From positions 248,001-312,000 of the forward strand of contig NZ_JABBGG010000004.1 of the NCBI RefSeq assembly GCF_012927275.1: 64,000 bases of DNA, read 5' to 3'. Shown here piece after piece: positions 2,240 to 54,850 of the stretch. The stretch is from Massilia polaris (lineage in GTDB: Bacteria; Pseudomonadota; Gammaproteobacteria; Burkholderiales; Burkholderiaceae_D). The translations under genes and the position numbers were made by a program. Each line of letters opens with the position of its first letter. The first letter of the stretch is position 1. The notes under the pieces were generated by a model, which was given only the letters and a program-made list of their open reading frames with translations, did no database searches and had not been told where the DNA came from.

Positions 2240-3295
2240 TCACACCGCCCACTGCCCGTCCTTGTACACCTGCCGGTCATCCAGGTACACCGCTTCGGTA
2301 ACCGCGAAAATATCGATGTGGTAGCGCGCATCCTTGCGCTTGAAGCCCGGCTTCGGATACACGCCGTGCTTGGCGCCCAGCGACAGGTGGATGCCGCACA
2401 TGCGCTCGTAAGTACCGATGTCGTTGACCCTGCGCTCGGCCGTGAACGCGCGGTTCATGCCGAAGCCAAGCTCGCGCACCCATACCTCGCCCTCGTCGGC
2501 GCGGATCATTTCCAGCACATGCTCGAACTCCGGCGTGGCGTCGCGCGTGCCGACCACCCGTCCGCGTTCGATCACCAGCGTCACCGGCACCTCGGGGCGG
2601 TTGACCATGTACGCGGTATCGCCAAACACGTGCACCCGCACCTCGCCATTGACCGCTTCCAGGTCCTGCGCCTCGGTGAACACTTCGCCGATCGGGAACT
2701 GGCCGCCCACGTTGTTCATCTCGCTGTAGTCGCCGACGTTCAGCTTGGCCGGTTCGAAGCGCGAACCGAACACCAGCGGATTCGCGCTGCCGCTGTACAC
2801 CGTGCCCGAACCGGCATGGTCGATCAGCGCCTTGAGCGCGCGCCCGGTGCCGCGGTAGTAAGCCGGGTCGTAGGCGAGCGACTCGATGTAGTGCTCGCCC
2901 TGCGCACCCGGCATGCGCGACAGGTGCACGTGCTCGATCACTTTCAGGCCAAGCTTGAACAGCTCGACCCGGATGCGGAAAGCTTCAAGGCGGAAATTGG
3001 TGGACTGCACCAGCACCACCAGGCCGGACGGCGCCATGCGCCTGAACGCGGCCAGAACTTCATCGGGCCCGACGGTGTCGAAATCGATGAACAGCGCTTC
3101 CGGCAGGGTGCGGCGGTAGCCTTCGGTCAAAGCCCGCGCCAGGTCGCAGCGGGTGTCGAACACGACCAGCGCACCGTGCGCCGGCCGGTGCTCGACCGCG
3201 ATCGACAGGATGTCGCGCAGGTGGGCGGCGGCGGCGTCGACGGCGTGTGCGGGAATCGCGCCAATATCGGCGGCGGCAGGGACGGGGGTGTTCAT
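2240..3295 (-). CDS. M29 aminopeptidase-like protein
   Basis: A 351-residue protein whose central part (YSGSANPLVFGSRFEPAK, then GGQFPIGEVFTEAQD) resembles M29 thermophilic metallopeptidases and relatives, where a G-x-x-P-x-G-E-V-F segment supplies a metal ligand. The N-terminal half looks like a nucleotide-binding-type alpha/beta fold. It may be an enzyme related to aminopeptidases rather than a true peptidase. The start is the ATG at 3295; a longer frame to 3517 has no family features. It lies upstream of, and probably in the same transcript as, the PhyH and DUF2750 genes. Confidence 0.5.
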   Translation of the reverse strand: MNTPVPAAADIGAIPAHAVDAAAAHLRDILSIAVEHRPAHGALVVFDTRCDLARALTEGYRRTLPEALFIDFDTVGPDEVLAAFRRMAPSGLVVLVQSTNFRLEAFRIRVELFKLGLKVIEHVHLSRMPGAQGEHYIESLAYDPAYYRGTGRALKALIDHAGSGTVYSGSANPLVFGSRFEPAKLNVGDYSEMNNVGGQFPIGEVFTEAQDLEAVNGEVRVHVFGDTAYMVNRPEVPVTLVIERGRVVGTRDATPEFEHVLEMIRADEGEVWVRELGFGMNRAFTAERRVNDIGTYERMCGIHLSLGAKHGVYPKPGFKRKDARYHIDIFAVTEAVYLDDRQVYKDGQWAV

Positions 3296-3533
3296 GATCA
3301 ATTCTGCGGAGGGAAACAACCTGCCATTATACGGTTGCGGCTGTCCATTTCGCCTGCCGCGACGCATTTTTGCAGGCCGGCGGTAGCGTATTTCGCACCC
3401 GCCGGGCTCGCTTGGCAGTACCGGGCAATCAAACCGCCCGCAGTTTCCAGTTGCGCTATGATTTATCAAGCAACAGCGTCCCCATTGTGGTGGGCATCGT
3501 TGCGTATATTCATACATATATCAGGCGAGCGAG
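3296..3533. promoter_or_regulatory. Divergent promoter region between the M29-like gene and the tubulin-like operon
   Basis: This 238-base gap separates two divergent transcription units, so promoters for both are expected. It is visibly richer in A+T near the right end, with TATATTCATACATATATC at 3506-3523 just before the first operon gene. I could not assign a -35/-10 pair with confidence and see no palindromic operator. Confidence 0.4.
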
Positions 3534-5009
3534 ATGGCATACCGATGGGAAACGCCAGCCAGCGTCTGGCTGGAGGACGACAAGAGCGGACGGTTTGAAC
3601 TGGTGTCGAGCGAAGGCTTGAGCCGGATCGACTGGCACGCGCAGGAGCGCGGCCGCGTGCCCGACTGCGCCCAGCTGCTCGGCGCCTCGCTCCCGCTGTC
3701 GTGCGACTGCTCGCCGATCTTCCCCGAAGGCTTCGCGTTCTGCCCGAACTGCGGGCGCGCGCTCGACAAGCTGGCCGGCCAGTACAAAAACCAGCCTGAC
3801 TGGTGGGGCCCGTGGAGCGACCAGTTCCTGCCGCGCCATGTGCCGCATGGCCTGCCGGTCACCATGCTGGCGCTTGGCGACAGCCTCGAAGAACGTCCCG
3901 CCGCACCCGCCATCGGCCGCGTCGAACTGGCGATGCCGGTCCCGCCCAATGCCGAATGCGTGTTCGCCGCCGGTGCCTACGGCTTTCCGGTGCCGCGCCT
4001 GCTGGCGCTGGCGTGCGCGCGCGGCGTGCTGCAATACTGGGATCCGATGGCGCAGCTGTGGCATGTGATGGCGGCCGAACCAGGCGCGGCCTCGCTGGCC
4101 TTCACCGCGGCGGAGTACGCGTGGATTCCCGCGCTGAACCCGATGCGCGGCGAAGTCGCGCTGCTGCCAAGCGATACCGGACTGCACCGGTTATGGATCA
4201 ACCCGGTCAGCGAAACCTACCGCACCGAGTGCGTGCTCGACGCGCCTCTGGCCAGCAGCCCGGGCATGATCCGGCGCCACGTGGCCTGCCTGTTTAACAG
4301 CGACGGCGGCGCGCGCCTGTGGACAGCCGACGGCGCCGAAGCCACCGTGTTCGATTGCGGCGGCGTCCCCGCCAGTGGCTGGAGCCGCCCGATCGGCTAC
4401 GACGATCGCCTGACCTGGCTGCACGCGCAGGGACAGCTGTCATGGCGCGCAGGAACGGCGCCGCAGTGGCTGCCGTGGCCGGCCGGCTGGACGCCGCGAG
4501 CTGAATTCGGCGGGCCGACCCAGAGCCGCGATGGCCGCCTGTGGCTGATCGGGCACGGCGCCGATGGCTATTCCTTCCTCGAACTGGGCACCGCGACGCC
4601 GCAATCGGAGCCGGTCAACGGCGCGCGCCTCGGCTTTGCCAGCCTGCTGTTCCGCCGCGGGCACGCGGTGGTCGGGGACCCGTGGGACCCGGAGCACGTC
4701 GAAGACCCGCACGACGACGACACGCTGGTGCTGCCGCTGCTGCGCGGTTTCAACAACAACCGCAGCCAGCCAAGCGGCCTGATCCTGCGCTTCCACAAAT
4801 ACACCGGCAGGGCGGAAGATGCGCTGTCGGGCCGCACGATCGCGCGCACCACGGTCGAATGGATCGGCAAGCGCAACGTCATCCTCGACGAAATCGTGCG
4901 CCTCGCGCGGCCGCTCGCATGCGTGCCGTTCGTGTACGACGGCTGCCTGTGGCTGCACCATCCCGACTGGAACCGGATGCGCGGGTGGCGACTGGAAGAA
5001 CTGTCGTGA
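3534..5009 (+). CDS. Zinc-ribbon protein, first gene of tubulin-like operon
   Basis: A 491-residue soluble protein that I do not recognise as a named family. Residues 57-73 contain four cysteines (CDC then CPNC, at 57, 59, 70 and 73) that could bind one zinc ion as a ribbon. The remaining 400 residues are rich in Trp-containing beta-strand segments with short turns, which could be a beta-propeller; this is inference. It has no signal peptide or membrane segment. Its stop overlaps the GTG of the next gene by four bases, a sign of translational coupling. Its role is presumably in the same complex as the tubulin-like protein. Confidence 0.8.
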   Translation: MAYRWETPASVWLEDDKSGRFELVSSEGLSRIDWHAQERGRVPDCAQLLGASLPLSCDCSPIFPEGFAFCPNCGRALDKLAGQYKNQPDWWGPWSDQFLPRHVPHGLPVTMLALGDSLEERPAAPAIGRVELAMPVPPNAECVFAAGAYGFPVPRLLALACARGVLQYWDPMAQLWHVMAAEPGAASLAFTAAEYAWIPALNPMRGEVALLPSDTGLHRLWINPVSETYRTECVLDAPLASSPGMIRRHVACLFNSDGGARLWTADGAEATVFDCGGVPASGWSRPIGYDDRLTWLHAQGQLSWRAGTAPQWLPWPAGWTPRAEFGGPTQSRDGRLWLIGHGADGYSFLELGTATPQSEPVNGARLGFASLLFRRGHAVVGDPWDPEHVEDPHDDDTLVLPLLRGFNNNRSQPSGLILRFHKYTGRAEDALSGRTIARTTVEWIGKRNVILDEIVRLARPLACVPFVYDGCLWLHHPDWNRMRGWRLEELS

Positions 5010-6496
5010 GGCGCGGTATTCGCCACGTCGCCGCGGCCGCCGCGCTGGCTGGCGCCGGCCTGCCCGCGCACGCCGTGTCGCACGTGTTCCTGGTCCAGAA
5101 CTCGGGCTGGATGGAGCCGTTCTACGCCGACCCGGCGTCGCAGTTCAAGCCGCTGGTCGTCGAGCTGGCGGCCGCCGTCACCCAGCCGGGCGACCTGATG
5201 GTGCTGGCCTCCTTCAACCAGGGACGTCCCGGCGCGCCGTCGCCGAAGGCGCTGCTGTCGGCACGAGTGCCAGCCGGCGGCGCACGCTCGCAAGTGCGCG
5301 GCGCCATCGACGGCCTGCAGCCGGCGCGCAAGCCGGGCAGCACTGCGCTGGCCGACACCGACCTGGGCGAGGCGGTCCAGGCGGCCATCCACACTGGGCT
5401 GGGCGGCAAGCCGGGGCTGGTATGGCTGGTGACGAACAACCGCAACAGCCCGGACAACGACCAGGCGACCGCGCTGCGCAACCGCGAGTTCTACCAGCTG
5501 ATACACCAGGGCGGCGGCATCGCCAAGGCACTGGCGTGGCCCCTGAAAATGCCGGTGCAGGGCGCACAGTACCGCGCCAACGGGCTGATGGTGTATGTGT
5601 TCGCCGTTGGCGCGCAGGGCGCGAACGAACTAGATGCGCTGCTGGCGTCGGGCCGCATCGCCAGCGTCATCACCGAGCCGCCGGCGCGCCTGAAACCGCT
5701 GGACCGCGCCACCGTTCGGCTGGTGCCGCGCAAGGTCGAAGAGGCGCGCGGCGTGTCGTTCTCGATGGCGGCGAACGGCATGCTGCGCGCCGACGTGTCG
5801 CCCGACGCGAAGTCACCGCTCGCGAAGATCGGCTGGAACCTCGAAAACACGATGTACCCATACACGATCGCCAGCGCCACGCTGGCCGCGCGCTCGGTGC
5901 TGGGCGGCGAGGACCGGCCGATACGCCTTGCGAACGCCGAGGTAAAAGGCCTCGCGCCCGGAAAAAGCGAACCGCTGGCGTCGGTCATGCAGCTGCCGGT
6001 GGCGCAGCTGCCCGGCAAATGGTCGCTCGCGGCGCTTGGCTCGGCCGGATCGGCTTACGTGTTGCCGGGCCGGATCGAACTGACGCTGACCGGACAGCGC
6101 CTCGAACTGTCGCGCGCTTTCCGTGAACGCATGGCCGCGCTGTTTCCCGGCGACCCGCTGCCGGACATCTTTATTCCGCCGTCAAGCATCGACGGTTCGC
6201 GCGCGGTGCTGCCGATCGAGGTGCGGGTGCATTACGGCGTCGGGCCGCTGCTGGCCGTGATGGCCGCGGCGCTTGGCGCGCTGGCCGCCGCGGCAGGCGC
6301 CGCGTATGCGCTCGGGCGCCCGCGCGAGGCCTGGCTGACGGTGGAGGACGAGCAGCGCACGATGATGGCGCGCGCCGGCACCACCCAGCCGATCTACGAC
6401 AAGGCCGGCGCCAGGGTCGCCAGCCTGAAGACGACACTTTTCGGCCACCAGCTGATCGACCTGCGCGATGGTGCGCAGGTGCGGCTGGGCCGCTGA
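5006..6496 (+). CDS. Exported VWA-like membrane protein
   Basis: A 496-residue protein with an N-terminal signal sequence (cleavage likely after AHA at residue 23). Next comes a von Willebrand factor A-like domain: the first strand (VFLVQNSGWM, residues 27-36) sits where the metal-binding DxSxS motif normally is, and GLVWLVTNN matches a later core strand. The metal-binding Asp is replaced, so metal dependence may be lost. A membrane segment lies near residues 412-436, followed by a ~65-residue tail. I chose the GTG at 5006, which overlaps the upstream TGA, has GGAAG nearby and yields the signal peptide; the frame open from 4541 is a shadow upstream of that point. Confidence 0.8.
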   Translation: MRRGIRHVAAAAALAGAGLPAHAVSHVFLVQNSGWMEPFYADPASQFKPLVVELAAAVTQPGDLMVLASFNQGRPGAPSPKALLSARVPAGGARSQVRGAIDGLQPARKPGSTALADTDLGEAVQAAIHTGLGGKPGLVWLVTNNRNSPDNDQATALRNREFYQLIHQGGGIAKALAWPLKMPVQGAQYRANGLMVYVFAVGAQGANELDALLASGRIASVITEPPARLKPLDRATVRLVPRKVEEARGVSFSMAANGMLRADVSPDAKSPLAKIGWNLENTMYPYTIASATLAARSVLGGEDRPIRLANAEVKGLAPGKSEPLASVMQLPVAQLPGKWSLAALGSAGSAYVLPGRIELTLTGQRLELSRAFRERMAALFPGDPLPDIFIPPSSIDGSRAVLPIEVRVHYGVGPLLAVMAAALGALAAAAGAAYALGRPREAWLTVEDEQRTMMARAGTTQPIYDKAGARVASLKTTLFGHQLIDLRDGAQVRLGR

Positions 6497-6514
6497 CCCA
6501 CGAGGAAACCACGC

Positions 6515-6955
6515 ATGCAGAACCACCAGACTCCCGCCACGCCGACCGAAGACCCGGGCTTCAAATTGCCGGGCGAGGCCGAGGCCCAGCCGAAAACCGA
6601 ATTGCCTGCGGCAACCGGCCAGGTCGAAGTAGTGCCCTCGACGGTGGAAGGCGCGCCCGTCACCGACACCTCGACGCGCGACCTGGCGATCGGCGCGGCC
6701 GTGTTCGCGGTGCTGCTGCTGGTGTACTTCTTTGCGCGTAACGCCTACGTCCACCACCTGGTGGTGCGGCGGGTGGCGCCGTCGTCGGCAGGCAGCGCCG
6801 GCTGGCTGATGTTCGTCGGGCTGGCGTTCATGAGCGCGGCCGCGGTCCTGGCGATCATCAACGCCAGCAAGTTCCTCACCTTCGCCGTGACCGCACCGCT
6901 GGTCGCGGTCGGCCTGGTTGCGCTGGCGGCCGCATTCTTCGTCGGCCGCCGCTGA
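6515..6955 (+). CDS. Small membrane protein of tubulin-like operon
   Basis: A 146-residue protein with a Pro/Glu-rich, probably disordered N-terminal 55 residues and about three hydrophobic segments (around residues 60-80, 95-115 and 120-143). The last ends in positively charged FFVGRR. No family is recognised. A GAGGA ribosome-binding site precedes the ATG. It lies 18 bases after the VWA-like gene and 26 bases before the tubulin-like gene, so it is likely an inner-membrane partner of that system. Confidence 0.8.
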   Translation: MQNHQTPATPTEDPGFKLPGEAEAQPKTELPAATGQVEVVPSTVEGAPVTDTSTRDLAIGAAVFAVLLLVYFFARNAYVHHLVVRRVAPSSAGSAGWLMFVGLAFMSAAAVLAIINASKFLTFAVTAPLVAVGLVALAAAFFVGRR

Positions 6956-6981
6956 CCCCTACTTCACTGAAAGAACCGAAC

Positions 6982-9900
6982 ATGGCAGATTATCCAGGCA
7001 CAGGGAAGAAGGCGGAACTGAAGGTCGACCTTCGGCCGACGCTGTTCATCGGCGCGGGCGGCACCGGGATGGAGGTGATGCTGCGCATTCGCCGCCGCAT
7101 CCTGTCGGCAGTGTGGAACAAGCAGGACCCGACCCGGGTCGAGTCGATCGGCCAGTTCCCGGTCGCCCGCTTCCTCCACTTCGACCTCGATAACAGCGCA
7201 GTCATCGACGAGGGCAAGTCGCAGCGCACCGACCCGTGGTACGAACTGGTCAAGCTGTCGGACGAAGAACGGCTGGTCGAACCGATCGACCTGCCGCAAT
7301 ACCACGAGTCCGACGACAGCCTGGCGCGCTTCCCGCTGATCGAAAGCTGGATGCCGCTGCGGCCCAAGAAACTGCGCTCGCTCGGCATCGACCCATCCAA
7401 GGGAGCAGGGCAGATCCGCGCGGTGGCGCGGCTCTACCTGTTCGACAAATATCCGAAGCTGCGCGGCCGCATCAAGGGCGCGCTCAACTTCTTGAGCAGT
7501 AACGCGGGTAACGAGCGCAAGGAAAACTACCAGCGCCTTGGCCTGCAGGTCGACACCTCCAAGTTCCGCATTGTCGTCATCGGTTCCTGCGCCGGCGGCA
7601 CCGGCGCGGGCACGGCGCTCGACCTGGGCTGGATATCGAAGGCGATCGCGCGCCAGGAAGTATCGGACAGCCAGGTCGACCTGGTGATGTTCATGCCGTC
7701 CGGCTTCGCCAAGGCCAACAAGGAGCGCACCGAGGCGAACGCTTACGCCACCTTGATGGAGCTGGAAACCGCGATGCGCGACATGAATGCGCAGGTGCGC
7801 TGGGCCGACCCGGATTCGCTGGCCGGCAAAGGCGCGCCGTTCGACGACGTCTACTTCGTCGATACCGCCAACCTGGCCAACAAGGCCACCGCCGACATCA
7901 AGGACATCTACCAGATGGTGGCGGACACCTTGTTCGAAGACTTCGCGTCGGCCGATTTCGCCAACCGCAAACGCTCGGTGGCGGTCAACCAGCAGCAGCA
8001 CAAGCTGGGCCCGTACAACCCGCGCGTGCCGGAGCAGCGCTTCGGCGCCATGCGCCTGTCGTATTCAAAAGTATATTCGGCGTTCGGCCAGGCGGTGCTC
8101 GACACCCAGCAAAGCCTGCGCGACGACATCCGCGCCTATGAACTGGCGGCGTTGATGGTCAAGGCGTTCTTCGGCCTGGCGGGGCGCGACGGGGTAGCCC
8201 CGCGCCGTGCGGGCGACCAGGAACGCGACATCTTCATGCGCGACCAAATGCAGATGAGCGAGCGCCCGTTCAGCGAGTTCCCCGACTTTAAGAAGGGAAC
8301 GTCCGACGTCACGCCGTTCCAGGAATACGCGCTGACCGACCAGCTGTTGATGGACAAGGACCAGCGCTCGCTGCTCGAACGTGTCGAGAGCAAGGTGCAG
8401 GTCGAGATGGACCGCATCATGGCGTCTTACGACGTCAGGCAGTGGCGCGAGAAGGTCGCCGGGCTGCTGCCGGACCTCGAACGCGACGCGATCCGGGAGG
8501 CCGGCGCCACTGCCGAGACCAGCGAGGACCGCATCAAGCGCCACACCATCGAACTGACGGCGCGCCTGAAGGACCGCGCGCGCAGCCAGCTGTATGCACT
8601 GCTGGACGACCGCAAGCAAGGCGGGCTGGAGTTCGTGCTGTCGCTGCTCGAACAGGTCAAGGCGCGCCTGCTGCAGCGCGACCTCGGCAACGCGGAACGC
8701 AACGGCAAACGCTACCGCGATGTGCGCGACGCGCTGCGCACGCGCCAGGTCGAGGAATCGCTCGGCAACCTGGCGCAGGCGTCCACGCGCCTGATCGGCA
8801 AGGAGGCGCAGGCGCGCGAAGTGATGGGCCACCTGAAGCGCGACATTTCGGACTACCTGCGCTTCCACCTGCTGGCGGTGGCGGCGGGCCAGTCGATTGA
8901 CGTCATGCGCGCGATGTCCGCCTGGCTGGGCGAAACACAGTCGACCGACGAACAAGGGCAGCCTGTATGGACCGGCATCGCCGGCGAATTCCAGCAAGGC
9001 CGGCGCGCGGTGCAGGGGATGCTCGGCGCGGTCGACCGCCGCATCGACCAGCTGCGCGCGGATGCCAGGCACGAGCATGCCACCTGCATCAAGCTGGCTG
9101 GCGACCTCGATCCGCAACCGGTCAGGCTGACCGGCGACGTCAGTGCGTGGAGTGAGGAAGTGCTGCTCGAATTCGGCGGCTCGGCGCGGCTGTTCCCGCA
9201 GCTGGACGACGACAAGCTGCGTTCCAGCCTGCTGCTCAAGCTGTTCCGTCGCGCCCAGACCCAGCTCTCGCGCGAACAGATCGGCGAGGAAGCGCCGCAA
9301 GACCCGCTGCTCGATCGGCTGGCCGCGATGACACCGCCGGAGCGCCACCGCATTTTCGCGGAATGGATCAAGAGCGCGATGCCGTGGATTAGCGCGCGCT
9401 TCTCGGCCGAGTTCACGCCGCGCGCCGACCAGTTCAAGTGCTTCATCGGCGTCGGCGACGTCAATGCATGGCGCCGGATGGAAGCGGAGATCCGCGCCGC
9501 CGTGCCGACCGGTTTCTTCCACGGCGAGCTGGTCTCGATCGTCAACACCGGCATCACCGGCAAGGCGGTGTGCTACATCGAACTGTCGGGCTATCCGATG
9601 ACGGTGCTGCGCGGCTTGCCGACCTGGCGCACCTCGTACCAGATCGAGAACCCGAAGATCCCGACCCACCTGCATTTCGACTCGACCCGCTTCCGCCATC
9701 CGATTTCTCCGTCGATGGATGAACTGAACCGCCTGGCCGACGACTACGAGTGGTTCCTGCAGGCGAACGCGCTGGGCGTCATCCGGCGCAAGGCCGATCT
9801 TGGGGATCGCGAAGCGTCGTTCCAGCCGCGCGGCCAGTACCTGTTCGAGGTGGAGCCGGGTTCGGGCGAATGGCTACAGATCGGCAACGAGTTCGCGATC

Positions 9901-10596
9901 CGCTCGAACGGCCTGCCCGCGTACTACCGCGAGCAGGTGATCGAAGGCGTCAGGCGCAAGCTGGCCGGCATGGGACCGCACCAGATGACAATGCTGGCGG
10001 CGCTGATGCGCCACTACCAGCAGCGCGTGTATGAGCCGCGCCTGGAAGTCGACGAGACCGGCGCTCAGCTGCCGTCGCCATCGCTGCCGACGATTACCGC
10101 GCGCCGCCTGTACGAGGAATGGTTCAAGCGCGCGCGTGCACTCGACCCGGCAGTCGGGCCGCGCCACATCGATGCGGCGTTTGCCGCGATCGGCACGTGG
10201 ACATCCCTGGTGCCAGGCTCCTCTGGCGATGCGTATTCGTGGGAGGTTGAGCGCCCGGTCGACAAGCGCATCATCTGCGCCGAGTACCTGGCCAGCGAGG
10301 AAGCCGCCGCCGCCGCGATCGCGCGGCCGGCCGCCGCACCGGCCCAGGCCTCGACTGCGGGCGCACGCTTCAAGCTGTTCCTGAATGGCGCCCAGGCCGG
10401 ACCGTTCGGGCTCGACGAGATCGTGCAGCGCATCGCGCGCGGCGAAGTGCGCGAGGCGACCAAGGCGTGGAACATGGCATGGAATCCGAAGGCCGACAAA
10501 TGGCAGGCCGCCGGCGCGCTGCCGGAGCTGGCGCCGCTGTTCGGCCATGCGCAAGCGATCCCGGACCCAGACGACGACGTTCCCGATCCGGACTAA
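6982..10596 (+). CDS. Tubulin-like protein (Tubulin_2 type) with C-terminal GYF_2-like domain
   Basis: A very large (1204-residue) protein. The N-terminal region begins LFIGAGGTGMEVML, a glycine-rich nucleotide-binding loop. Residues 201-210 read GSCAGGTGAG, matching the GGTG[AS]G tubulin/FtsZ signature loop that contacts the nucleotide phosphates. It is far longer than FtsZ (~390) or TubZ. The middle ~600 residues are charged and helical. Residues ~1127-1192 (from FKLFLNGAQAGPFGLDEI) look like a GYF_2 domain, often a protein-interaction module. It ends in an acidic tail. It is the core of a five-gene operon with zinc-ribbon, VWA-like and membrane proteins. GTP binding and polymerisation are inferred only. 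Confidence 0.82.
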   Translation: MADYPGTGKKAELKVDLRPTLFIGAGGTGMEVMLRIRRRILSAVWNKQDPTRVESIGQFPVARFLHFDLDNSAVIDEGKSQRTDPWYELVKLSDEERLVEPIDLPQYHESDDSLARFPLIESWMPLRPKKLRSLGIDPSKGAGQIRAVARLYLFDKYPKLRGRIKGALNFLSSNAGNERKENYQRLGLQVDTSKFRIVVIGSCAGGTGAGTALDLGWISKAIARQEVSDSQVDLVMFMPSGFAKANKERTEANAYATLMELETAMRDMNAQVRWADPDSLAGKGAPFDDVYFVDTANLANKATADIKDIYQMVADTLFEDFASADFANRKRSVAVNQQQHKLGPYNPRVPEQRFGAMRLSYSKVYSAFGQAVLDTQQSLRDDIRAYELAALMVKAFFGLAGRDGVAPRRAGDQERDIFMRDQMQMSERPFSEFPDFKKGTSDVTPFQEYALTDQLLMDKDQRSLLERVESKVQVEMDRIMASYDVRQWREKVAGLLPDLERDAIREAGATAETSEDRIKRHTIELTARLKDRARSQLYALLDDRKQGGLEFVLSLLEQVKARLLQRDLGNAERNGKRYRDVRDALRTRQVEESLGNLAQASTRLIGKEAQAREVMGHLKRDISDYLRFHLLAVAAGQSIDVMRAMSAWLGETQSTDEQGQPVWTGIAGEFQQGRRAVQGMLGAVDRRIDQLRADARHEHATCIKLAGDLDPQPVRLTGDVSAWSEEVLLEFGGSARLFPQLDDDKLRSSLLLKLFRRAQTQLSREQIGEEAPQDPLLDRLAAMTPPERHRIFAEWIKSAMPWISARFSAEFTPRADQFKCFIGVGDVNAWRRMEAEIRAAVPTGFFHGELVSIVNTGITGKAVCYIELSGYPMTVLRGLPTWRTSYQIENPKIPTHLHFDSTRFRHPISPSMDELNRLADDYEWFLQANALGVIRRKADLGDREASFQPRGQYLFEVEPGSGEWLQIGNEFAIRSNGLPAYYREQVIEGVRRKLAGMGPHQMTMLAALMRHYQQRVYEPRLEVDETGAQLPSPSLPTITARRLYEEWFKRARALDPAVGPRHIDAAFAAIGTWTSLVPGSSGDAYSWEVERPVDKRIICAEYLASEEAAAAAIARPAAAPAQASTAGARFKLFLNGAQAGPFGLDEIVQRIARGEVREATKAWNMAWNPKADKWQAAGALPELAPLFGHAQAIPDPDDDVPDPD

Positions 10597-10607
10597 AGGC
10601 GCCTTAC

Positions 10608-11396
10608 GTGCAAGAGCAAGTGTACCGATGTATCCACGCTGCCTGTGCGCGGCCGTTGCCGCGCAGGGTGGACTTTTGCCCTTACTGCGGCACCGGGCAG
10701 CACGCGGGCGTCAGTAATCCCGCGCATGCGCGGCCGGCGCCTGCGCCCTACATGCCGCCGTCGCCGCAGCCCGCCGCCGCGCCACCTATGCCCGAACCGA
10801 AACCGAAACCGGAACCGGTCGCTGTCGCCGCGGCGCCCGCTGCGATGGCATGGGGATCCAGGCCGGCGCCCGCGACCGTAGCGTCGAAGCACCAGCGCGG
10901 CCCGGTCAGGCTGCGCTGGTGGTTGCTGCTGCTGGCCGTAGTGATCGGCCTGTGGGTGTGGGACAAGCCGAGGAGGATCGAGGCGCGCATCGAGCGCGCC
11001 CTCGCACTCGGCGCCGAGTGCCAGCTCAACGAGGCGCAGGCGGAGCTGATCGAGCTGCGTTCGACGCGCGCGTCGCCGGAGCAGCTCCAGCGCCTCCAGC
11101 AGGGACTCGACAAAGCTTCGGCCGTGTGCGAGCGCAGGCAGCAGCGCGCCAAGGCATGGCGCGGCACCGAGATCGCGGTGGATCAAGCAATCGACAGCGC
11201 CAGCTTCATCAAGGCGCAGCAGCGCCTGCAGGGGTTCGTGCGCAAATGGGGCGAGGACAGCGCCACCCGCAGCCTGAAGGAAAAGATCACCGCGGCCAGG
11301 ATCGCGTGGCAGAACAGCGACGCCGGAAAGCTGGAAAAGGAAAAGGCGGAGTGCCTGGCGCGTAACGGCAGGTGGCTGCTGGGAAGCTGCTGGTAA
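10608..11396 (+). CDS. Zinc-ribbon protein with single membrane anchor
   Basis: A 262-residue protein. Residues 8-27 carry four cysteines (C8, C13, and CPYC at 24-27) forming a probable zinc ribbon. A long Pro/Ala-rich linker follows, then one hydrophobic segment (WWLLLLAVVIGLWVW, near 104-118) and a ~145-residue coiled, charged C-terminal region that should lie outside the cytoplasm. The GTG start at 10608 has AAAGG eight bases upstream and begins 11 bases after the tubulin-like gene; longer frames upstream overlap that gene. It probably tethers the tubulin-like complex to the inner membrane. Confidence 0.78.
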   Translation: MQEQVYRCIHAACARPLPRRVDFCPYCGTGQHAGVSNPAHARPAPAPYMPPSPQPAAAPPMPEPKPKPEPVAVAAAPAAMAWGSRPAPATVASKHQRGPVRLRWWLLLLAVVIGLWVWDKPRRIEARIERALALGAECQLNEAQAELIELRSTRASPEQLQRLQQGLDKASAVCERRQQRAKAWRGTEIAVDQAIDSASFIKAQQRLQGFVRKWGEDSATRSLKEKITAARIAWQNSDAGKLEKEKAECLARNGRWLLGSCW

Positions 11397-11404
11397 ACTA
11401 TCGT

Positions 11405-11470
11405 CGTCGGAAAGTCGCAAAAATAGTAGTGGAGGATTGTAATTTAGTCTACTATTTAGACTTCCCGACG
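11405..11470. repeat. Long imperfect inverted repeat after the tubulin-like operon
   Basis: An outer pair (CGTCGGAAAGTC at 11405-11416 and GACTTCCCGACG at 11459-11470, one mismatch) encloses an inner pair (AAATAGTAG at 11421-11429 and CTACTATTT at 11449-11457). The RNA could fold into a long hairpin with GGAGG in the loop. There is no strong T-run after it, so it is not a clear terminator; it could be an attenuator or a small mobile element. Confidence 0.6.
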
Positions 11471-11481
11471 GAGGTTTCCTG

Positions 11482-11834
11482 ATGACGTTTTTCCGACCCT
11501 GCTAGCGGCCGTGCTGGCGCTGGCCGACGCGCCGGCGCTGGCGTCCGGCTTCGACTGCGTCGCCCCCGAATTCCCGCAAAAGTCCACGTCGAACGAGAGC
11601 GTACGCAGGGTGCAGAAGAAGATCAATTCGTGGCGCGCCTGCTATGCGGAGCAGGGCGCCGTGGGACCTGCCACGCAGGACGCGCAAAAGCTGAACGCCG
11701 AAGTCGACGCCGGGCTGCAGAAATGGATCGACGCCACCCGCGCCGCTAGCGGCCGCAATTCCGTCAGCGCCGGTACGCTGGCCACCATCGAGCGCGAACG
11801 CACCGACTACCTGCGCTCGGTACAACTGCGCTGA
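11482..11834 (+). pseudogene. Small secreted protein with apparent frameshift in its signal peptide
   Basis: A textbook GGAGGT ribosome-binding site (11470-11475) precedes an ATG at 11482, but this frame stops after seven codons. The long frame to 11834 is offset by one base. If the T5 run at 11488-11492 had six T's, the product would be a 117-residue protein with a good signal peptide ending in PALA and a mature part with a Cys pair. So the locus carries a one-base deletion, a sequencing error, or a -1 slip site. The alternative GTG start at 11511 would lack a signal peptide. No function is recognised. Confidence 0.6.
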
Positions 11835-11896
11835 TTTGCGCCGTTCCCGGCTGCACAGGTGTATGCTGTTCAGCAATATCATCGAGGGACTTCATC

Positions 11897-12232
11897 ATGA
11901 ACACGACACCAATTACCGGCGTCATGCTGGCACTGGCCATCCTTGCCGCCGCCGCCGGCTGCACTCCGCGCGACGAAGAAAAGGGACCGGCGCAGCAGGC
12001 CGGCGAGGCCATCGACAACGCGGGCGACAAGGTCGCGCGCAAGCTGCAGGAAAAGCTCGACAAGGCTGAAGAGGCGGGCGAGAAGATGGCCGACGCCGCC
12101 CGCAGCACCGGCGACCAGATCGAAGACGCGACCAGCGACGCCAGCCGCGGACTGGAGGAAGCGACCAAAAATGCGGGCAAGAAGGTCGAACAGGCCGGCG
12201 AGAAAATCCAGGACGCGGCCGACCCGGATTAA
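11897..12232 (+). CDS. Small lipoprotein with amphipathic helical repeats
   Basis: A 111-residue protein with a lipoprotein signal (LAILAAAAGC, lipid-attached Cys at about residue 22). The mature part is almost entirely Lys/Glu/Asp/Ala with an 11-residue-like rhythm (KLQEKLDKAEEAGEKMADAA), suggesting a long amphipathic helix like LEA or apolipoprotein-type stress proteins. GAGGGA lies just upstream of the ATG. It is probably an envelope stress or structural lipoprotein; the role is not established. Confidence 0.75.
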   Translation: MNTTPITGVMLALAILAAAAGCTPRDEEKGPAQQAGEAIDNAGDKVARKLQEKLDKAEEAGEKMADAARSTGDQIEDATSDASRGLEEATKNAGKKVEQAGEKIQDAADPD

Positions 12233-12281
12233 GAGCGGCTTACCCCCCTGCTGGATTCAAGGGGCTGAGAAGGAGCAAAAA

Positions 12282-12452
12282 ATGAACATGGCAATCCTGC
12301 GTGGTATTGGAGTCGGATGCGGCGTAGGGACTGCGCTCGGCGTCGCGCTGAACAGCGCTACATTGGGGCTCAGTCTCGGTATTGGGATCGGCGTCGCAGT
12401 CGCGGCAGCATCCCGTCTTCCTGACCCGATGCGAAAGGGCAAAGCAAAGTAG
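12282..12452 (+). CDS. Small glycine-rich membrane protein
   Basis: A 56-residue protein with a strong AAGGAG ribosome-binding site six bases before the ATG. Most of it is a hydrophobic, glycine-zipper-like stretch (repeated GxGxG around IRG..VGCGVG and LGIGIGVAVA) ending in a positively charged tail (MRKGKAK). It likely inserts in or associates with a membrane. It lies 49 bases after the lipoprotein gene. No family is recognised. Confidence 0.55.
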   Translation: MNMAILRGIGVGCGVGTALGVALNSATLGLSLGIGIGVAVAAASRLPDPMRKGKAK

Positions 12453-12529: not shown

Positions 12530-12877
12530 CTAATCGGTAATTGCACGAAGGCGTGCGAGTGCATCTTCAACCACAAATTCGGGCGCTGTCTCAACCCGTT
12601 TTGCTTTTCGCGCTTCGAGGTCAAGCATGCGAATCTGATTGACCAAAACCGCGCCTTGCATCTTCGTTCCCGCCCCGGTGAGAGATGCCGCGAATCCTGC
12701 ATGGCGAGCAAAGTTACCGCCTTGAGTTATTGGTGCAACTAACACTATGCCCAGCGCGTTGAACGCACTCACGGACAGCACCAAGGCGGGTCGCATGCCC
12801 TTTTGTTCGTGGCCTTCGGTTGGATCGAGATTAACCATCACGATGTCGCCGCGTCCAAACTTCACTCGGCTTACCAC
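12530..12877 (-). CDS. mazF: MazF/PemK-family toxin (endoribonuclease)
   Basis: A 115-residue protein with the PemK/MazF fold signature: GDIVMVNLDPTEGHEQKGMRPALVLS at the N-terminus, LVAPIT in the core and QIRMLD near the C-terminus. MazF toxins cut mRNA at short sequences when the labile antitoxin is lost. The GTG start at 12877 overlaps the end of the antitoxin gene by seven bases, the usual coupled arrangement. The conserved Arg and Thr (RPALV, PIT) used in catalysis are present. Confidence 0.9.
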   Translation of the reverse strand: MVSRVKFGRGDIVMVNLDPTEGHEQKGMRPALVLSVSAFNALGIVLVAPITQGGNFARHAGFAASLTGAGTKMQGAVLVNQIRMLDLEARKAKRVETAPEFVVEDALARLRAITD

Positions 12878-13122
12878 ACTTCACGCCCTACTGGCTTCAC
12901 GCTGCTCCATGCGGCCATATCGGCAGGCTCGGGAGCCGAAAGGTCACACTGGGCAACCAGATCAGACAGCGAATACGACGGACGGGCTGCCTTCAACAAA
13001 ACGCCCTCAGGCAGCACATTGACACTCAGCTTGTCGCCCAAAGTGACTTTGAGCATAGCCAGTAGCTCAGTAGGCAGGCGGACCGCTGCGCTGTTACCCC
13101 ATTTCTGCACCGACAGTTCCAT
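12871..13122 (-). CDS. mazE: MazE-family antitoxin (AbrB/SpoVT-type DNA-binding domain)
   Basis: An 83-residue protein beginning with a swapped-hairpin AbrB-type domain (VQKWGNSAAVRLPTELL), followed by a tail (SLSDLVAQCD) that would wrap the toxin. It neutralises MazF and represses its own promoter. AGGAGG precedes the ATG at a good distance, favouring antitoxin excess. It is the first gene of the pair, with a large inverted repeat just upstream. Confidence 0.9.
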   Translation of the reverse strand: MELSVQKWGNSAAVRLPTELLAMLKVTLGDKLSVNVLPEGVLLKAARPSYSLSDLVAQCDLSAPEPADMAAWSSVKPVGREVW

Positions 13123-32043: not shown

Positions 32044-34878
32044 ATGAATAAATTAACAAACAAGGCTGGCCAGGTAGCATTCAGGCTGAGCCCAGTGGCA
32101 GCTGGTTGCGCCATTTTCGTTTCGGCAATGGCCACGTCGGCGTTTGCACAAGAGGCAGTTCCGGCAGTTCCGGCCGCTCCAGTCGTCGAGACCGCTGTTG
32201 AAGCGCCGTCGGTTGTGGTCGTTACCGGCATCCGCCAGGGTATCGAGGCCGCGATTTCGATCAAAAAGAACAACAGCTCGATCGTCGAGGCGATTTCCGC
32301 CGAAGACATCGGCAAACTGCCTGACTCGAGCGTGGCTGAATCGATCTCCCGCCTGCCAGGCGTGACCACCCAGCGCAGCCGCGCGTCGGGCAAAGCGGCC
32401 GGCGTCTCCGTGCGCGGCCTGTCGCCTGACTTCAACGGCACATTGCTGAACGGACGCGAAATGGCGTCGACCAGCAATTCGCGCAGCCCTGAATTCGATC
32501 TGTTCCCTTCAGAACTGATGGGTTCGGTACTGATCTACAAGACCCCGGACGCGTCCGTCATCGGCCAGGGCCTGGCCGCGACCATCGACCTGCGCACGGC
32601 GCAGCCGCTCGACTTCGGCAAGCGCGTGATCGCTATCAGCGCCAAGAAGAGCCGCCTCGGCGTCGACGTCGAAGGCGACCTGCCTGAAGGCGATGGCAAG
32701 CGCCTGACCTTCTCGTACATCGACCAGTTCGCCAACCGTACCATTGGCGTGGCCTTCGGCCTGACCAAGTACGAAGAAGAAGGCGGCGCACAAGCCAAGT
32801 TCAACTCGTGGGGCGGCTGGGCGCCGACCCTACCGTACAACGGCCAGCAAGTCGCACTGCCGGGCGGCTTCACCGCTGATACCGAAGTCAACACCCATAA
32901 CCGCGACGGCGCTTTCGCCACGCTGCAATTCCGTCCGAACCGCAATTTCCGTTCGAGTATCGACCTGTTCTACTCGGCCGGCGACGACGGCTACAAGAAG
33001 ACCGGCCTGGAAGGCGCGATCGGCGGCAACGCCAATGGCGCGTACGATCCTGCCGGCGTGCTGCAGAACGTCACCGTGGTCAACGGCGTCGCTGCCTCCG
33101 GCACGCTGACCAACTTCAAGGGCGTGGTGCGTAACCACATCGAGTCGTCCGAAGACGACCTGAAGTCGGTGGGCTGGAACACCGAATGGAAGGCCGGCGA
33201 CTGGACCACCAACGCCGACCTGAGCTATTCGAAAGCGAAGAAGCAGAGCTCGCGTTACGAGACCACCGCAGGCTTGCCTGGCGACGCGACCGCCCTCGAC
33301 ACGATTTCGTGGACCGGTTTTAACGGCGGTAACTTTACCGACGTCGTCTACAAGACCGGCCTGAACTATGCAGACCGCAACGTCGCCAAGCTGACCGACG
33401 TCAACGGCTGGTCCGGTGGCGTCGCATCGCCGCAAGCCGGTTACTTGGCGCTGCCGCACGTTGAAGACACCATCAAGGCGATTCGCCTGACGGGCAAGCG
33501 TTCGATTGAGTTTGGTCCGGTTGAAGCCCTGCAGTTCGGCTACAACTACACGGTCCGCGACAAGGCGCGCACCGGCGAAGAGGGCCGCCTGGTCATCAAG
33601 GGCGGCAATCCGTACGGCACCGCTGCCGTGCCGGGCACCGACACCGTTATCGCCGGTACCACCGGCCTGCCGGTCGTGGCATGGAATCCGCTCGGTTCGC
33701 TGGGCACGATCTATGAACTGGCGCCGAAAGTCGACGCCGACATCCTGAACAAGTTCTGGGACGTCAAGGAAAAGGTCAACACCGCGTACGTCAAGGCTGA
33801 CCTGGACGGTACGCTGGCCGGCTTGTCCTACCGTGGTAATGTAGGCGCCCAGATCGTCCACACCAACCAGACCGGCGGCGGTTACGCCGTCGACCTGGCC
33901 CGATGCACCGGCAACACCGCGGCGACTTGCCCGGCCAAGGCCGTGTCGGAAAGCTCCAGCTATAACGACGTGCTGCCAAGCGCCAACCTGACGTTCGACC
34001 TGAACAATGACCAGCTGCTGCGCGTGGGCGTGGCCAAGGTGCTGTCGCGCGCCAACCTGGATGACCTGCGCGCCAGCAGCAGCGTCTCGATCAACACCAG
34101 CGGTCCGTTCCCGCTGCTGACCGGTTCGGGCGGCAACCCGCAGCTCAAGCCGTTCCGCGCCAAGGCCTTCGACCTGTCGTATGAGAAGTATTTCGGCAAG
34201 AAGGGCTATGTCAGCGTGGCCGGCTTCTACAAGAAACTCGACACCTACATCCTGCGCGCGCCCCGTGCGTTCGACTTTGCCGGCGTCATCACGCCGAGCA
34301 CCCCGCTGCCGCAGACCGGCCCTTACGCCGGCTCGACCGAGGGCCTGCTGACCCAGCCGGTCAACGGCGAAGGCGGCAGCATCCACGGCTTCGAAGTAGC
34401 GCTCAACGTGCCGTTCGAGCTGTTCACGCCTTACCTGGACGGTTTCGGCGCGCTGGTCAACCATTCGGACACCACGTCGAAGGTCACGCTGCCGTCGTTC
34501 GGCTTCGCCAACGTCAGCTTCCCGGCAATGGACATTCCGCTGCCAGGCCTGTCGAAGAAGGTCACCAACCTGCGCGTGTACTACGAGAAGGCTGGCTTCC
34601 AGATCGCTGCCGCAGCGCGCAAGCGTTCGGACTTCCTGGGCGTGGTATCGGACTTCCAGGACAACCAGCAGCTGACCTTCATCAAGGGTGAGACCATCGT
34701 CGACCTGCAGGCGTCGTACGAGTTCCAGACCGGCTACCTGAAGGGCCTGAGCATCTACGCACAGGCGATCAACTGGGGCAAGGAGCCATTCCAGGAGTTC
34801 ACCGTGGACCGCAACTCGGTCACCAACAAGGTGGACACGGGCCGTACCTACTCGCTGGGCATGGGCTACAAGTTCTAA
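32044..34878 (+). CDS. TonB-dependent receptor for maltodextrin-type sugars
   Basis: A 944-residue outer-membrane receptor with signal peptide (ends TSAFA), a TonB-box-like stretch (SVVVVTGIR), a plug domain (SSVAESISRLPGVTTQR, VRGLSPDFNGTLLNGRE) and a long beta-barrel ending in the aromatic residue Phe (YSLGMGYKF). It belongs to the large TonB-dependent receptors that import oligosaccharides in Caulobacter, Xanthomonas and relatives. The substrate is inferred from neighbours: starch and maltodextrin genes on both sides. GAGGGGACAA precedes the ATG. A strong terminator follows. Confidence 0.9.
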   Translation: MNKLTNKAGQVAFRLSPVAAGCAIFVSAMATSAFAQEAVPAVPAAPVVETAVEAPSVVVVTGIRQGIEAAISIKKNNSSIVEAISAEDIGKLPDSSVAESISRLPGVTTQRSRASGKAAGVSVRGLSPDFNGTLLNGREMASTSNSRSPEFDLFPSELMGSVLIYKTPDASVIGQGLAATIDLRTAQPLDFGKRVIAISAKKSRLGVDVEGDLPEGDGKRLTFSYIDQFANRTIGVAFGLTKYEEEGGAQAKFNSWGGWAPTLPYNGQQVALPGGFTADTEVNTHNRDGAFATLQFRPNRNFRSSIDLFYSAGDDGYKKTGLEGAIGGNANGAYDPAGVLQNVTVVNGVAASGTLTNFKGVVRNHIESSEDDLKSVGWNTEWKAGDWTTNADLSYSKAKKQSSRYETTAGLPGDATALDTISWTGFNGGNFTDVVYKTGLNYADRNVAKLTDVNGWSGGVASPQAGYLALPHVEDTIKAIRLTGKRSIEFGPVEALQFGYNYTVRDKARTGEEGRLVIKGGNPYGTAAVPGTDTVIAGTTGLPVVAWNPLGSLGTIYELAPKVDADILNKFWDVKEKVNTAYVKADLDGTLAGLSYRGNVGAQIVHTNQTGGGYAVDLARCTGNTAATCPAKAVSESSSYNDVLPSANLTFDLNNDQLLRVGVAKVLSRANLDDLRASSSVSINTSGPFPLLTGSGGNPQLKPFRAKAFDLSYEKYFGKKGYVSVAGFYKKLDTYILRAPRAFDFAGVITPSTPLPQTGPYAGSTEGLLTQPVNGEGGSIHGFEVALNVPFELFTPYLDGFGALVNHSDTTSKVTLPSFGFANVSFPAMDIPLPGLSKKVTNLRVYYEKAGFQIAAAARKRSDFLGVVSDFQDNQQLTFIKGETIVDLQASYEFQTGYLKGLSIYAQAINWGKEPFQEFTVDRNSVTNKVDTGRTYSLGMGYKF

Positions 34879-34903
34879 GCGACCGGTTTTAAGGTCTACA
34901 ATG

Positions 34904-34940
34904 CAACCCCTGCCGGCTCGCGCCGCAGGGGTTGTTTTTT
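34904..34940 (+). terminator. Rho-independent terminator after the TonB receptor gene
   Basis: CAACCCCTGC (34904-34913) pairs perfectly with GCAGGGGTTG (34925-34934) around an 11-base loop and is followed by six T's (34935-34940). It ends 18 bases before the halogenase start, so some read-through or a separate promoter must supply that gene. Confidence 0.9.
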
Positions 34941-34958
34941 ATCCGTCTAGGGGCAGGA

Positions 34959-47240: not shown

Positions 47241-47310
47241 CGCAATTCAAGTTTTGGTGCATTTCATACAATAGGGTATCCTTGTCGCCATCCAGTTTTT
47301 ACTGATAGTG

Positions 47311-49167: not shown

Positions 49168-49214
49168 GAATCTTGGGAGTTCGGCCTGGACCGCTGGGTG
49201 AAAGGAACCGAGCG

Positions 49215-50341
49215 TTATTGAGCCCAGCTGTATTCCCATCTCCACGGCATATCGGTCTCGCCCAGCACGCGCCTGGCGAGCTCCGGAAAGATGCGCTCGG
49301 CGCGGACGTCATTTGCCAACAGCACGATGCAGCGCTGACCTGACTCCAGGCATAGCACCATGTTCCCGGTCGAGTCATTATGTCCACCCTTGAACCACGC
49401 TGGACCACTGCGGTCACGGAATGTGACCAGCCCCAGGCCCGCCGCAAGCGATTGCGGCCAGCTGGCCTGTGCGGCTGTGAGTGTGGGGAACTGGCTGGTG
49501 GACCCGATCGGCAGCTGTGGCTTGATCAATGCCGCGCGCGCGGCTGCGCTTAGCCCATCGCCGCGCATGATGCCGGCCCACATACGTGACTGGTCATCGA
49601 TGGTTGTATCCATCGACCCGGCCGCCCTGGGGCTGCTGCGCTGGTCGTGGGGTTCGACCTTGCCTTCGGCCGTATAGCCGTCGGCCAGATTGGCGCCGAA
49701 GTCCTCGCGCCAGCTCATGCTCGTATTGCGCATTCCAAAGCGGTCGAAAACACGCCGCTGCATTTCCTGCCCTGTGTCGAGGCCCAGTCCTTTCTCGACG
49801 ACCAGCTGGAGCAAATAGAAGCCCTCGCCGGAGTAGGCATATCGGCTGCCCGGATCGAAATGGAGCGCAGCTTCTTGTCCGGTTCCAGCCAGCGGAAGTT
49901 GGCGAAGCCCGAGGCGTGCGTCAACAGGATGCGTGGCGTCAGCCGTCGCCAGCGCTGGTCATTCGCCAGATCGGTGAAATCGTATGGGTGAGCGTCGTAC
50001 GATGGAAGCGCTTGCGGGAGCAACGCGCTCAAGGGGGCGTCGAGGTCGAGCTTCCCTTCGTCGGCCAGCTGCAACAGCATGTACGCGAACGCAGTTTTTG
50101 TCAGCGAGGCGCCGTACATGATGGTATCGGGGGCGAGCGGAAGTGCATTCGCCACGTTGCGCCTGCCGTAAGCGCTTACCTTCACCACTTTGCCACGTTC
50201 GATTACAGCCAGTGCCAGGCCTTCCACGCTGTTGCGCCGCATGAGTGCATGCACTTCGGCATCCGGGATCGCTTCCGGCGCCGGTCGCAGGGCAGAACAT
50301 CCGGACAGGACGCATGCAAGCAAGCAGATTGCTGTTTTCAT
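49215..50341 (-). pseudogene. Serine hydrolase (beta-lactamase class C family), frameshifted
   Basis: Two overlapping frames together encode one serine hydrolase. The N-terminal part has a lipoprotein signal (ACVLSGC) and the SxxK nucleophile (ASLTK). The C-terminal part has the YxS-type segment (YAYSGEG) and KGGHNDSTGN. The frames join at about 49863: one missing T converts the expected RFHFDPGSRY into RSISIRAAD. The natural product would be about 375 residues. Either the gene is newly dead or the base was missed in sequencing. Confidence 0.82.
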
Positions 50342-50476
50342 CGACGGTGCCCGGGCTGAGTTGAGGTACATCCATCATGACATACGCACGGGCGGCCCGC
50401 GCTGTCCTTGAAAGTTCGCCCGGTTTGTGGTGCCATGGGACAGTCCGTCCCGAACCCTGATCCTGGAGTCGCATAA

Positions 50477-54718: not shown

Positions 54719-54801
54719 GGCTGTCTCGGAGTAGGTTGTTATTAACTTACAGACTGTCTGGACGTGATGCGTCCTTGCTCTCACAATGGTAGCGCAATAT
54801 T

Positions 54802-54816
54802 TGTAGCTTTACTACG
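54802..54816. promoter_or_regulatory. HexR-like operator 3 (upstream of pullulanase)
   Basis: TGTAGCTTTACTACG at 54802-54816 fits TGTAGTNNNACTACA with two symmetric-side mismatches and keeps both GTAG/CTAC cores. It lies 84 bases upstream of the pullulanase start. Confidence 0.6.
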
Positions 54817-54825
54817 TAGATTTAA

Positions 54826-54850
54826 TGCCCCTCCCAGGACGGGAGGGGCA
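54826..54850. terminator. Probable terminator after the POT transporter gene
   Basis: TGCCCCTCCC (54826-54835) and GGGAGGGGCA (54841-54850) form a perfect 10-base stem with a five-base loop, seven bases beyond the stop of the leftward transporter gene. On the minus strand it is followed by TTAAAT, a weak T-tract. Confidence 0.65.

Follow-up and report, generated by a model that had tools for sequence, protein, structure and literature searches.

The stretch analyzed here (hereafter, the window) comprises 64,000 nucleotides (nt) of Massilia polaris, whose genome assembly totals 4.52 Mb in 30 contigs. Near its start lies an operon of five genes, designated g1 to g5, which encodes a large tubulin-like protein (g4) together with a VWA-like protein with an exported layout (g2), a small membrane protein (g3), and two proteins with cysteine-rich segments of the zinc-ribbon or zinc-knuckle kind (g5 and g1). 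The module is genuine and coherent, and its presence in another class of the phylum marks it as old. Our preferred reading, which we hold tentatively, is that the operon may encode a single machine of the FtsZ-like 1 (Tubulin_2) type, docked at the membrane, in which a nucleotide-dependent cytoplasmic scaffold would rest on an inner-membrane/periplasmic complex. The genes and their features are given below in window coordinates, with the basis of each assignment in parentheses (TM, transmembrane; ORF, open reading frame).

3534..5009, + strand: g1, 491 aa; zinc-knuckle-like N-terminal segment, then a long region (ORF, Pfam below cut-off, hydropathy)
3654..3764, + strand: zinc-knuckle-like segment of g1, residues 41–77 (Zn_ribbon_15 E=0.04 and Zn_Ribbon_1 E=0.043, both below cut-off)
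5006..6496, + strand: g2, 496 aa, GTG start (AlphaFold2, hydropathy, hhalign)
5096..5113, + strand: QNSGWM motif of g2, residues 31–36, at the position of the DxSxS motif of the metal ion-dependent adhesion site (MIDAS) of VWA domains (orthologue counts)
6515..6955, + strand: g3, 146 aa; Pro/Ala-rich N-terminal tail containing the short motif GFKLP, and three TM-like segments after it (hydropathy, alignment)
6982..10596, + strand: g4, 1204 aa; Tubulin_2 domain, long helices, mixed alpha/beta C-terminal part, GYF_2 domain, and short acidic tail (Pfam, AlphaFold2, Foldseek)
7042..8103, + strand: Tubulin_2 (FtsZ-like 1) domain of g4, residues 21–374 (PF13809)
8521..9066, + strand: long helices of g4, residues 514–695, a coiled-coil candidate (DSSP on the AlphaFold2 model)
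10384..10530, + strand: GYF_2 adaptor domain of g4, residues 1135–1183 (PF14237; family profile versus 7z3c)
10608..11396, + strand: g5, 262 aa, GTG start; zinc ribbon, proline-rich linker, one TM segment, and helical C-terminal region
10629..10688, + strand: zinc ribbon of g5, with C8, C13, C24, and C27 (sequence, pattern count)
10719..10838, + strand: proline-rich segment of g5, 40 residues from residue 38, 40% proline

A conserved five-gene operon

The tight operon described in a first-pass annotation of the window was recovered exactly, with five ORFs on the + strand over 3534–11396 and intergenic gaps of −4, 18, 26, and 11 nt. No sigma-70-like promoter was found in 3300–3600. An imperfect hairpin just past g5 (11396–11480, −26.5 kcal/mol, z=−3.0 versus shuffles) is possibly the operon's terminator; the repeat listing gave no inverted repeat at these positions.

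We collected related loci through the g4 family and used the best 80 of 133 confirmed loci, nearly all of them labelled Massilia or other Oxalobacteraceae, from which 79 g4, 78 g2, and 79 g5 orthologues were drawn. The complete five-gene order was present in 74 of these loci, the other six (L080, L094, L107, L110, L121, and L128) having genes cut at contig ends, and the order of the genes present was kept in 80/80. Spacing was conserved as well: median gaps at the first three junctions were −4, 21, and 20 nt, and the g4–g5 gap had a median of 9 nt and was at most 60 nt in 76/77 loci. Flanking genes were often retained (a divergent upstream gene in 67/80 loci and a downstream ABC transporter gene in 57/80). 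The closest named g4 relative among these loci, at 94% identity, was that of Massilia agrisoli. Most g4 orthologues (74/79) were of the window's kind (type 1), and the remaining five formed a second type, about 45% identical to the window's g4 (four aligned); low-identity relatives of the type-2 kind were also present in family genomes. One type-2 locus (L033) carries an extra gene after g5 with only sub-cut-off matches to glycine-zipper and DUF533 families; an OmpA identity for this gene was not borne out.

Genome surveys gave a similar picture of a sparse module whose members travel together. Tubulin_2 was found in 32 of 145 genomes of the window's family (31 over cut-off), in 7 of 300 genomes sampled from the order (4 of those belonging to the window's family), and in 8 of 398 sampled from the phylum (7 over cut-off); two genomes with marginal PF13809 matches, G031 (E=1.3e-4) and G606 (E=3.9e-4), are not included as members. 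The g1 and g2 profiles each matched 32/145 family genomes, and both genes were present in all 31 genomes with Tubulin_2 over cut-off, as well as in G009, an assembly of 790 contigs with 80% completeness. Co-occurrence of g2 with Tubulin_2 across the 145 genomes had a Fisher p of 8e-31 (ignoring phylogeny), and none of the 31 family genomes held two complete tubulin genes. In the class sample, where up to 4 candidates were scored per genome, g2 was found in 1/369 genomes, namely the window's own. Both the locus order and the co-occurrence within the family support the expectation in the first-pass annotation that the operon's genes stay together elsewhere.

The module reaches beyond the class. 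A genome from another class of the phylum (G755) contained matches to g1 (E=3.4e-19), g2 (7.4e-92), g3 (4.8e-17), and g4 (6.7e-213) in the same order, with a QDSGWM motif in g2, an FNLP motif in the g3 tail, and a GYF_2 domain at the end of g4. The g5 hidden Markov model (HMM) found no g5 in this genome; downstream, beyond apparently one small gene, lies the gene for a proline-rich protein of the CxxC type that has a PEGA domain. Because the g1, g3, and g5 HMMs were trained on sets including L033 and L059, only other loci count as tests of these models.

Beyond g4, database searches were largely silent. Proteins g1, g2, g3, and g5 had no Pfam match over cut-off, none of the five proteins had an NCBIfam match over cut-off, PADLOC returned 0 matches for the five at E up to 1, and no convincing match to any of them came from PHROGs. 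In particular, no GTPase, protein kinase, or OmpA family match was found among the five proteins in Pfam or NCBIfam.

The tubulin-like protein and its predicted partners

The N-terminal part of g4 matched Tubulin_2 (PF13809) with E=7.2e-49 (167.4 bits versus a cut-off of 27), and the GTP-loop glycine motif appears as AGGTGAG at residues 204–210, so that the GGTGAG signature previously placed at residues 205–210 is exact; the pattern S.AGGTG.G was present in 79/79 orthologues. Structures of g4 and g2 were predicted with AlphaFold2 as single chains, the g4 input consisting of residues 1–1199 and 43 sequences. The g4 model had a mean predicted local distance difference test (pLDDT) score of 68.5 and a predicted TM-score (pTM) of 0.42, with long helices at 514–601, 607–649, and 665–695 (pLDDT mostly 79–95) followed by a mixed alpha/beta C-terminal part. 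Most FtsZ-like 1 proteins have an FtsZ-like domain, an extended coiled coil, and a mostly helical C-terminal domain; g4 fits this in the order of its domains and the length of its helices, but the C-terminal part of the model departs from it. When this model was compared to the PDB with Foldseek, tubulin, CetZ, or FtsZ chains made up the first 12 rows (probability 0.99–1.00) and 40/50 of those listed, the chain identity of microtubule entries being judged from title and chain length. The fold predicted in the first-pass annotation therefore came through this comparison, which ranked tubulins first on a model of low confidence. Taken together, profile match, motif, and predicted structure support a tubulin-superfamily domain in g4.

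Canonical tubulin-family genes occur in the same genome. We found two PF00091 (FtsZ/tubulin) genes besides the Tubulin_2 gene, indicating that division can be served without g4; they lie outside the window at G000:C30:104175-104645 and G000:C25:85385-85855, and their open frames span 428 and 421 codons. Neither PF00091 nor the FtsZ C-terminal domain had a Pfam match in g4 itself at E up to 1.

A second recognizable domain of g4, which the first-pass annotation did not report, is a C-terminal GYF_2 domain (PF14237, E=3.1e-7, 30.5 bits versus a cut-off of 25.8). GYF_2 occurs once in the window's genome, in g4, and was not found in 14 control genomes; in the family survey, it was over cut-off in the tubulin gene of 31/31 Tubulin_2 genomes, which shows that GYF_2 is associated with the Tubulin_2 gene of this family. 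In the loci inspected, the domain also accompanies g3, in type 1, type 2, G755, and a plasmid relative from Azospirillum. Conversely, the Tubulin_2 proteins of G401, G613, G803, and Thermus contained no GYF_2, and the stretches searched there gave no g1 or g3 matches. The g4 HMM failed to reach the G401 (L060) and G803 (L145) loci, so the missing g1 and g3 matches in these most distant relatives may be due to divergence, and the pairing of GYF_2 with g3 is a matter of a handful of lineages, given here with no statistic. The acidic tail beyond the domain carries an IPDP repeat, a pattern present in 60/79 orthologues.

The g4 family profile matched the solved chain 7z3c (adventurous gliding motility protein X) over the GYF region only (E=1.2e-6), and phmmer with the g4 C-terminus against the PDB found nothing. 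GYF domains bind proline-rich peptides, as known from eukaryotic members. In this operon, the proline-rich segment of g5 would most likely be the ligand of the g4 GYF domain, and we propose it as such. Among the literature matches listed, there was no study of a bacterial GYF protein.

We found g5 to be the clearer of the two zinc-ribbon proteins. Its four-cysteine pattern was present in 78/79 orthologues, and the window's g5 matched Pfam zinc ribbons below cut-off only. The description of g1 as a zinc-ribbon protein holds less well, both Pfam matches being below cut-off: among type-1 g1 sequences, a C...CPxCG pattern was present in 62/70 and two upstream cysteines in 34/70, and CPxC was present in 0/5 type-2 sequences. 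Protein g1 has no TM-like segment by hydropathy and is presumed cytoplasmic; its profile matched nothing in the PDB. Proline richness of the g5 linker is a family trait (the highest proline fraction over 40 aa had a median of 0.375 in the 71 of 79 orthologues scored, some values being too low because the TM segment was mis-picked). A single TM segment is predicted at residues 100–118 of g5, and the zinc ribbon, together with the lack of an obvious signal peptide, would place the linker in the cytoplasm. The C-terminal region, presumed periplasmic, appears TPR-like in longer orthologues, as the family profile matched designed TPR proteins (E=4.3e-6 at best) over a stretch largely missing from the window's shorter g5. 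In g3, the motif of the N-terminal tail is recognizable across the family as GF.[LV]P (66/78 orthologues).

The reading of g2 as an exported VWA-like protein stood up in its first part and less so in its second. Protein g2 was modeled with a mean pLDDT of 86.9 and has, by eye, a signal-peptide-like N-terminal stretch, with one TM helix at 413–437 by hydropathy. Strands and helices of its first 230 residues alternate in VWA fashion, again by eye, and are followed by beta-rich domains; the VWA-like and beta-rich domains are presumed periplasmic and a small beta-rich C-terminal domain cytoplasmic. The metal motif expected of a VWA domain is replaced by QNSGWM, which was present in 77/78 orthologues (the exception, L080, is cut by a contig end) and was preceded by [FY]LV in 55/78, and DxSxS was absent from the first 80 residues of all 78. 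A TNN motif was present in 78/78. The VWA relationship itself comes from a weak profile match: with 13 of 14 loci of related genomes (L148, too short, was left out), hhalign aligned the g2 family with VWA_2 members colinearly over the MIDAS motif, a DTD segment, and the TNN-ending strand (P=0.0015, probability only 17%). A VWA_2 match appeared in 1/11 g2 members (E=0.068), and alignment with a single Thermus VWA protein was weak (P=0.11). Foldseek with the g2 model listed no VWA among 50 rows, which were mostly Ig-like and potassium-channel beta domains, and the g2 profile matched nothing in the PDB. Hydropathy and the g2 model support the broader layout proposed earlier, with one soluble-looking protein, membrane proteins, and an exported protein encoded side by side.

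Relation to FtsZ-like 1 operons and distant loci

The operon had been put forward as a candidate for an undescribed system, which is not supported: the FtsZ-like 1 family (FtsZl1) was defined by Makarova and Koonin in 2010 (PMC2875224). As described in the main text of that paper, most FtsZ-like 1 operons contain a VWA gene, mostly with an intact MIDAS, together with lineage-specific families, often with TM regions, and a role in membrane remodeling was proposed; GTPase, protein kinase, and OmpA-family genes are frequent but not universal. One reviewer of the paper preferred transport or signaling. The authors argued in the same text against a division role, given the sparse distribution of the family and the presence of FtsZ besides, and noted that the C-terminal elements of FtsZ are not identifiable in FtsZ-like 1 (PMC2875224). 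In the relevant passages of later papers, Tubulin_2 proteins were set aside as divergent (PMC9871819, 2023), the VWA link was merely cited (PMC5898192, 2015), or the 2010 work was merely cited in the context of planctomycete division (PMC6952346). No functional study of FtsZ-like 1/Tubulin_2 appeared among the literature matches listed, in a search whose coverage mostly excludes subscription journals, and a search combining Massilia, tubulin, and FtsZ-like returned no paper.

Our data match the published description in several respects: an N-terminal Tubulin_2 domain followed by a long helical region, a neighbor with a weak resemblance to VWA proteins, membrane proteins, and canonical FtsZ elsewhere in the genome. 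They differ in that the Massilia operon is a set of five genes that includes zinc-ribbon proteins, in that g4 ends in a GYF_2 domain, in that the VWA-like protein lacks DxSxS, and in that no GTPase, kinase, or OmpA match was found among the five. What appears to be new here is this set of five, together with the GYF domain and the loss of DxSxS from the VWA-like partner, though parts of it may be contained in the additional files of the 2010 paper (PMC2875224); the words GYF, zinc, proline, and TPR are absent from its main text.

More distant relatives share parts of this arrangement. On Azospirillum sp. TSA2s plasmid p2 (NZ_CP039644.1, L191), which is typed as mobilizable, g3- and g4-like genes adjoin, the latter with a GYF_2 domain, and a g1-like gene missed by the g1 HMM was seen by weak hhalign only (P=6.5e-4); this locus differs in its gene company, which within 15 kb includes two genes of the caspase family, three of the OmpA family, and two DUF4384 genes. 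On Thermus oshimai plasmid pTHEOS01 (NC_019387.1, L192), a vWA-annotated gene overlaps the Tubulin_2 gene, as part of a row of TROVE-domain, vWA, Tubulin_2, hypothetical, and BrxL genes (2712–12363) that looks like a defense neighborhood. Here, the metal motif is intact (the annotated protein starts VFLVDTSGSM) and GYF_2 is absent; the vWA, Tubulin_2, and hypothetical proteins had no PADLOC match. Plasmid relatives are already annotated as 'tubulin-like doman-containing protein'. In G401 (L060, 150–13463), a distant Tubulin_2 gene occurs with an OmpA gene, two genes for DUF4384-containing proteins (one a caspase), and one for a CHAT-domain protein, and inspection by eye added another caspase-like ORF, along with two small proteins whose cysteines resemble those of zinc ribbons. 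In G803 (L145, 5234–12600), a short Tubulin_2 gene (523 aa) precedes a separate gene of 1191 aa that gave weak MreB and Ppx-GppA matches, and a membrane-anchored-looking protein with a DGSGGM motif is encoded two genes upstream.

Two better-known systems offer partial comparisons. FtsZ and eukaryotic tubulin share with g4 the GGTG[AS]G loop and, according to the low-confidence model, the N-terminal fold; they differ from it in that g4 is a 1204-aa protein with extra domains in which the FtsZ C-terminal/T7 region is not recognized. The likeness to Myxococcus xanthus AgmX/GltJ (7z3c) concerns the GYF region alone, and GltJ contains no tubulin. In GltJ, a zinc ribbon, a GYF domain, and a membrane anchor are found together. 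GltJ is part of the Myxococcus focal-adhesion machine and works with the GTPase MglA.

A proposed membrane-docked machine and its alternatives

In the machine that we tentatively propose, g4 would have a tubulin fold and reside in the cytoplasm, where it would bind GTP and associate with itself by way of the tubulin domain and the long helices. Its C-terminal GYF domain would hold the proline-rich g5 tail, and perhaps that of g3, leading the scaffold to assemble on the inner membrane. With g5 and g2 predicted to span the membrane, the state of the scaffold, conceivably set by nucleotide cycling and polymerization, could be passed to periplasmic TPR-like and VWA-like domains; g3 would act as a small integral membrane partner and g1 as a soluble regulator or adaptor. 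The output may be local envelope organization, that is, the assembly or positioning of a membrane or periplasmic structure, rather than cell division. A more elaborate version, in which a GTP-driven polymer docks by GYF-proline contacts while, in the periplasm, TPR domains and metal-free VWA domains take hold of the cell wall or of an outer structure, would make the operon a tubulin-based trans-envelope linkage, a counterpart of focal adhesions built on tubulin rather than actin; we regard this version as improbable.

Several observations weigh against a polymerizing scaffold docked through a GYF domain. The tubulin domain of the g4 model is weak, with many stretches under pLDDT 50; the best Foldseek E value was 2.4e-3, with no row at 0.001 and TM-scores to target of about 0.35–0.36. 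When g4 was aligned with 30 FtsZ sequences using hhalign, the glycine-loop region alone was aligned (P=0.0077, probability 5%), and the T7 catalytic loop was neither located by this profile comparison nor, since the model is too weak, placed on the structure. The main text of the 2010 paper likewise reports that T6-H7 was not found in FtsZ-like 1 and leaves filament formation open (PMC2875224). GYF_2 was also found outside tubulin genes in seven other family genomes, with a second copy in G081. Ligand motifs of GYF domains were not identified in g5 or g3, proline richness alone being a weak sign. Finally, the Azospirillum relative has no g2 match within 15 kb and a g1-like gene that is seen only weakly, so the set is not fixed everywhere.

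Some of these points would suit a different role, in which g4 is a non-polymerizing GTP-binding switch controlling a sensor or transporter that g2, g3, and g5 would form in the membrane. The failure to identify T6-H7 and the FtsZ C-terminal elements in FtsZ-like 1, as reported in the main text of PMC2875224, and T7 in g4 points in this direction, as does the altered yet conserved VWA-like site of g2, which would suit a ligand sensor, and transport or signaling is what the reviewer of the 2010 paper put forward. Set against this, none of the five proteins matched a transporter or enzyme family over cut-off, and the long helices of g4 look rather structural or oligomeric; we consider such a switch rather unlikely. 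Less probable still is a stress- or phage-responsive system, in which an envelope complex would detect damage and the tubulin-like scaffold would set off a response. This idea draws on the distant Tubulin_2 loci with caspase and CHAT genes (G401), two caspase-family genes (the Azospirillum plasmid), or TROVE and BrxL genes (the Thermus plasmid), and on the greater frequency of caspase-domain genes in family genomes with Tubulin_2 (20/31 versus 34/114; Fisher p=7e-4, from a manual count that ignores phylogeny). Since the window's genome has no caspase match, though distant relatives have one, we keep a caspase-coupled conflict system merely as a rival; the five proteins also have no PADLOC match, and their conserved chromosomal neighbors are unlike those of a mobile defense cassette.

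An accessory cytoskeleton for cell division or cell shape, acting beside FtsZ, would fit a tubulin-superfamily domain and the proposed membrane tethering. We reject cell division as the principal interpretation and give this role only a slight chance, owing to the module's sparse distribution (only 32/145 family and 8/398 phylum genomes, 31 and 7 of them over cut-off) and the PF00091 genes present besides g4 in the genome; Makarova and Koonin argue against it in their main text for the same reason (PMC2875224). That the operon is a chance cluster of unrelated genes is refuted by an order kept in 80/80 loci and by the g1–g4 order in another class, which reduces its probability to a negligible level.

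Other features of the window were recorded in passing. A MazF/PemK-like toxin gene paired with a MazE antitoxin gene lies at 12530–13122; this toxin gene was found in 0/80 related loci within the flanking sequence covered, so it may be a recent arrival. Farther along, two regions (32044–36470 and 47308–60206) contain a TonB receptor gene adjoining a tryptophan-halogenase-family gene, and two similarly built fusions of glucokinase with an RpiR-type regulator/SIS protein.

Few branches of the tubulin superfamily are as poorly understood as the Tubulin_2 proteins, which were named in 2010 and have a scattered distribution across bacteria and archaea. The operon described here offers a compact, conserved gene set in which one domain suggests tubulin's route to the membrane, in hosts that include named Massilia isolates. 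With these components in hand, the membrane-remodeling role proposed in 2010 becomes testable through binding, assembly, and localization.

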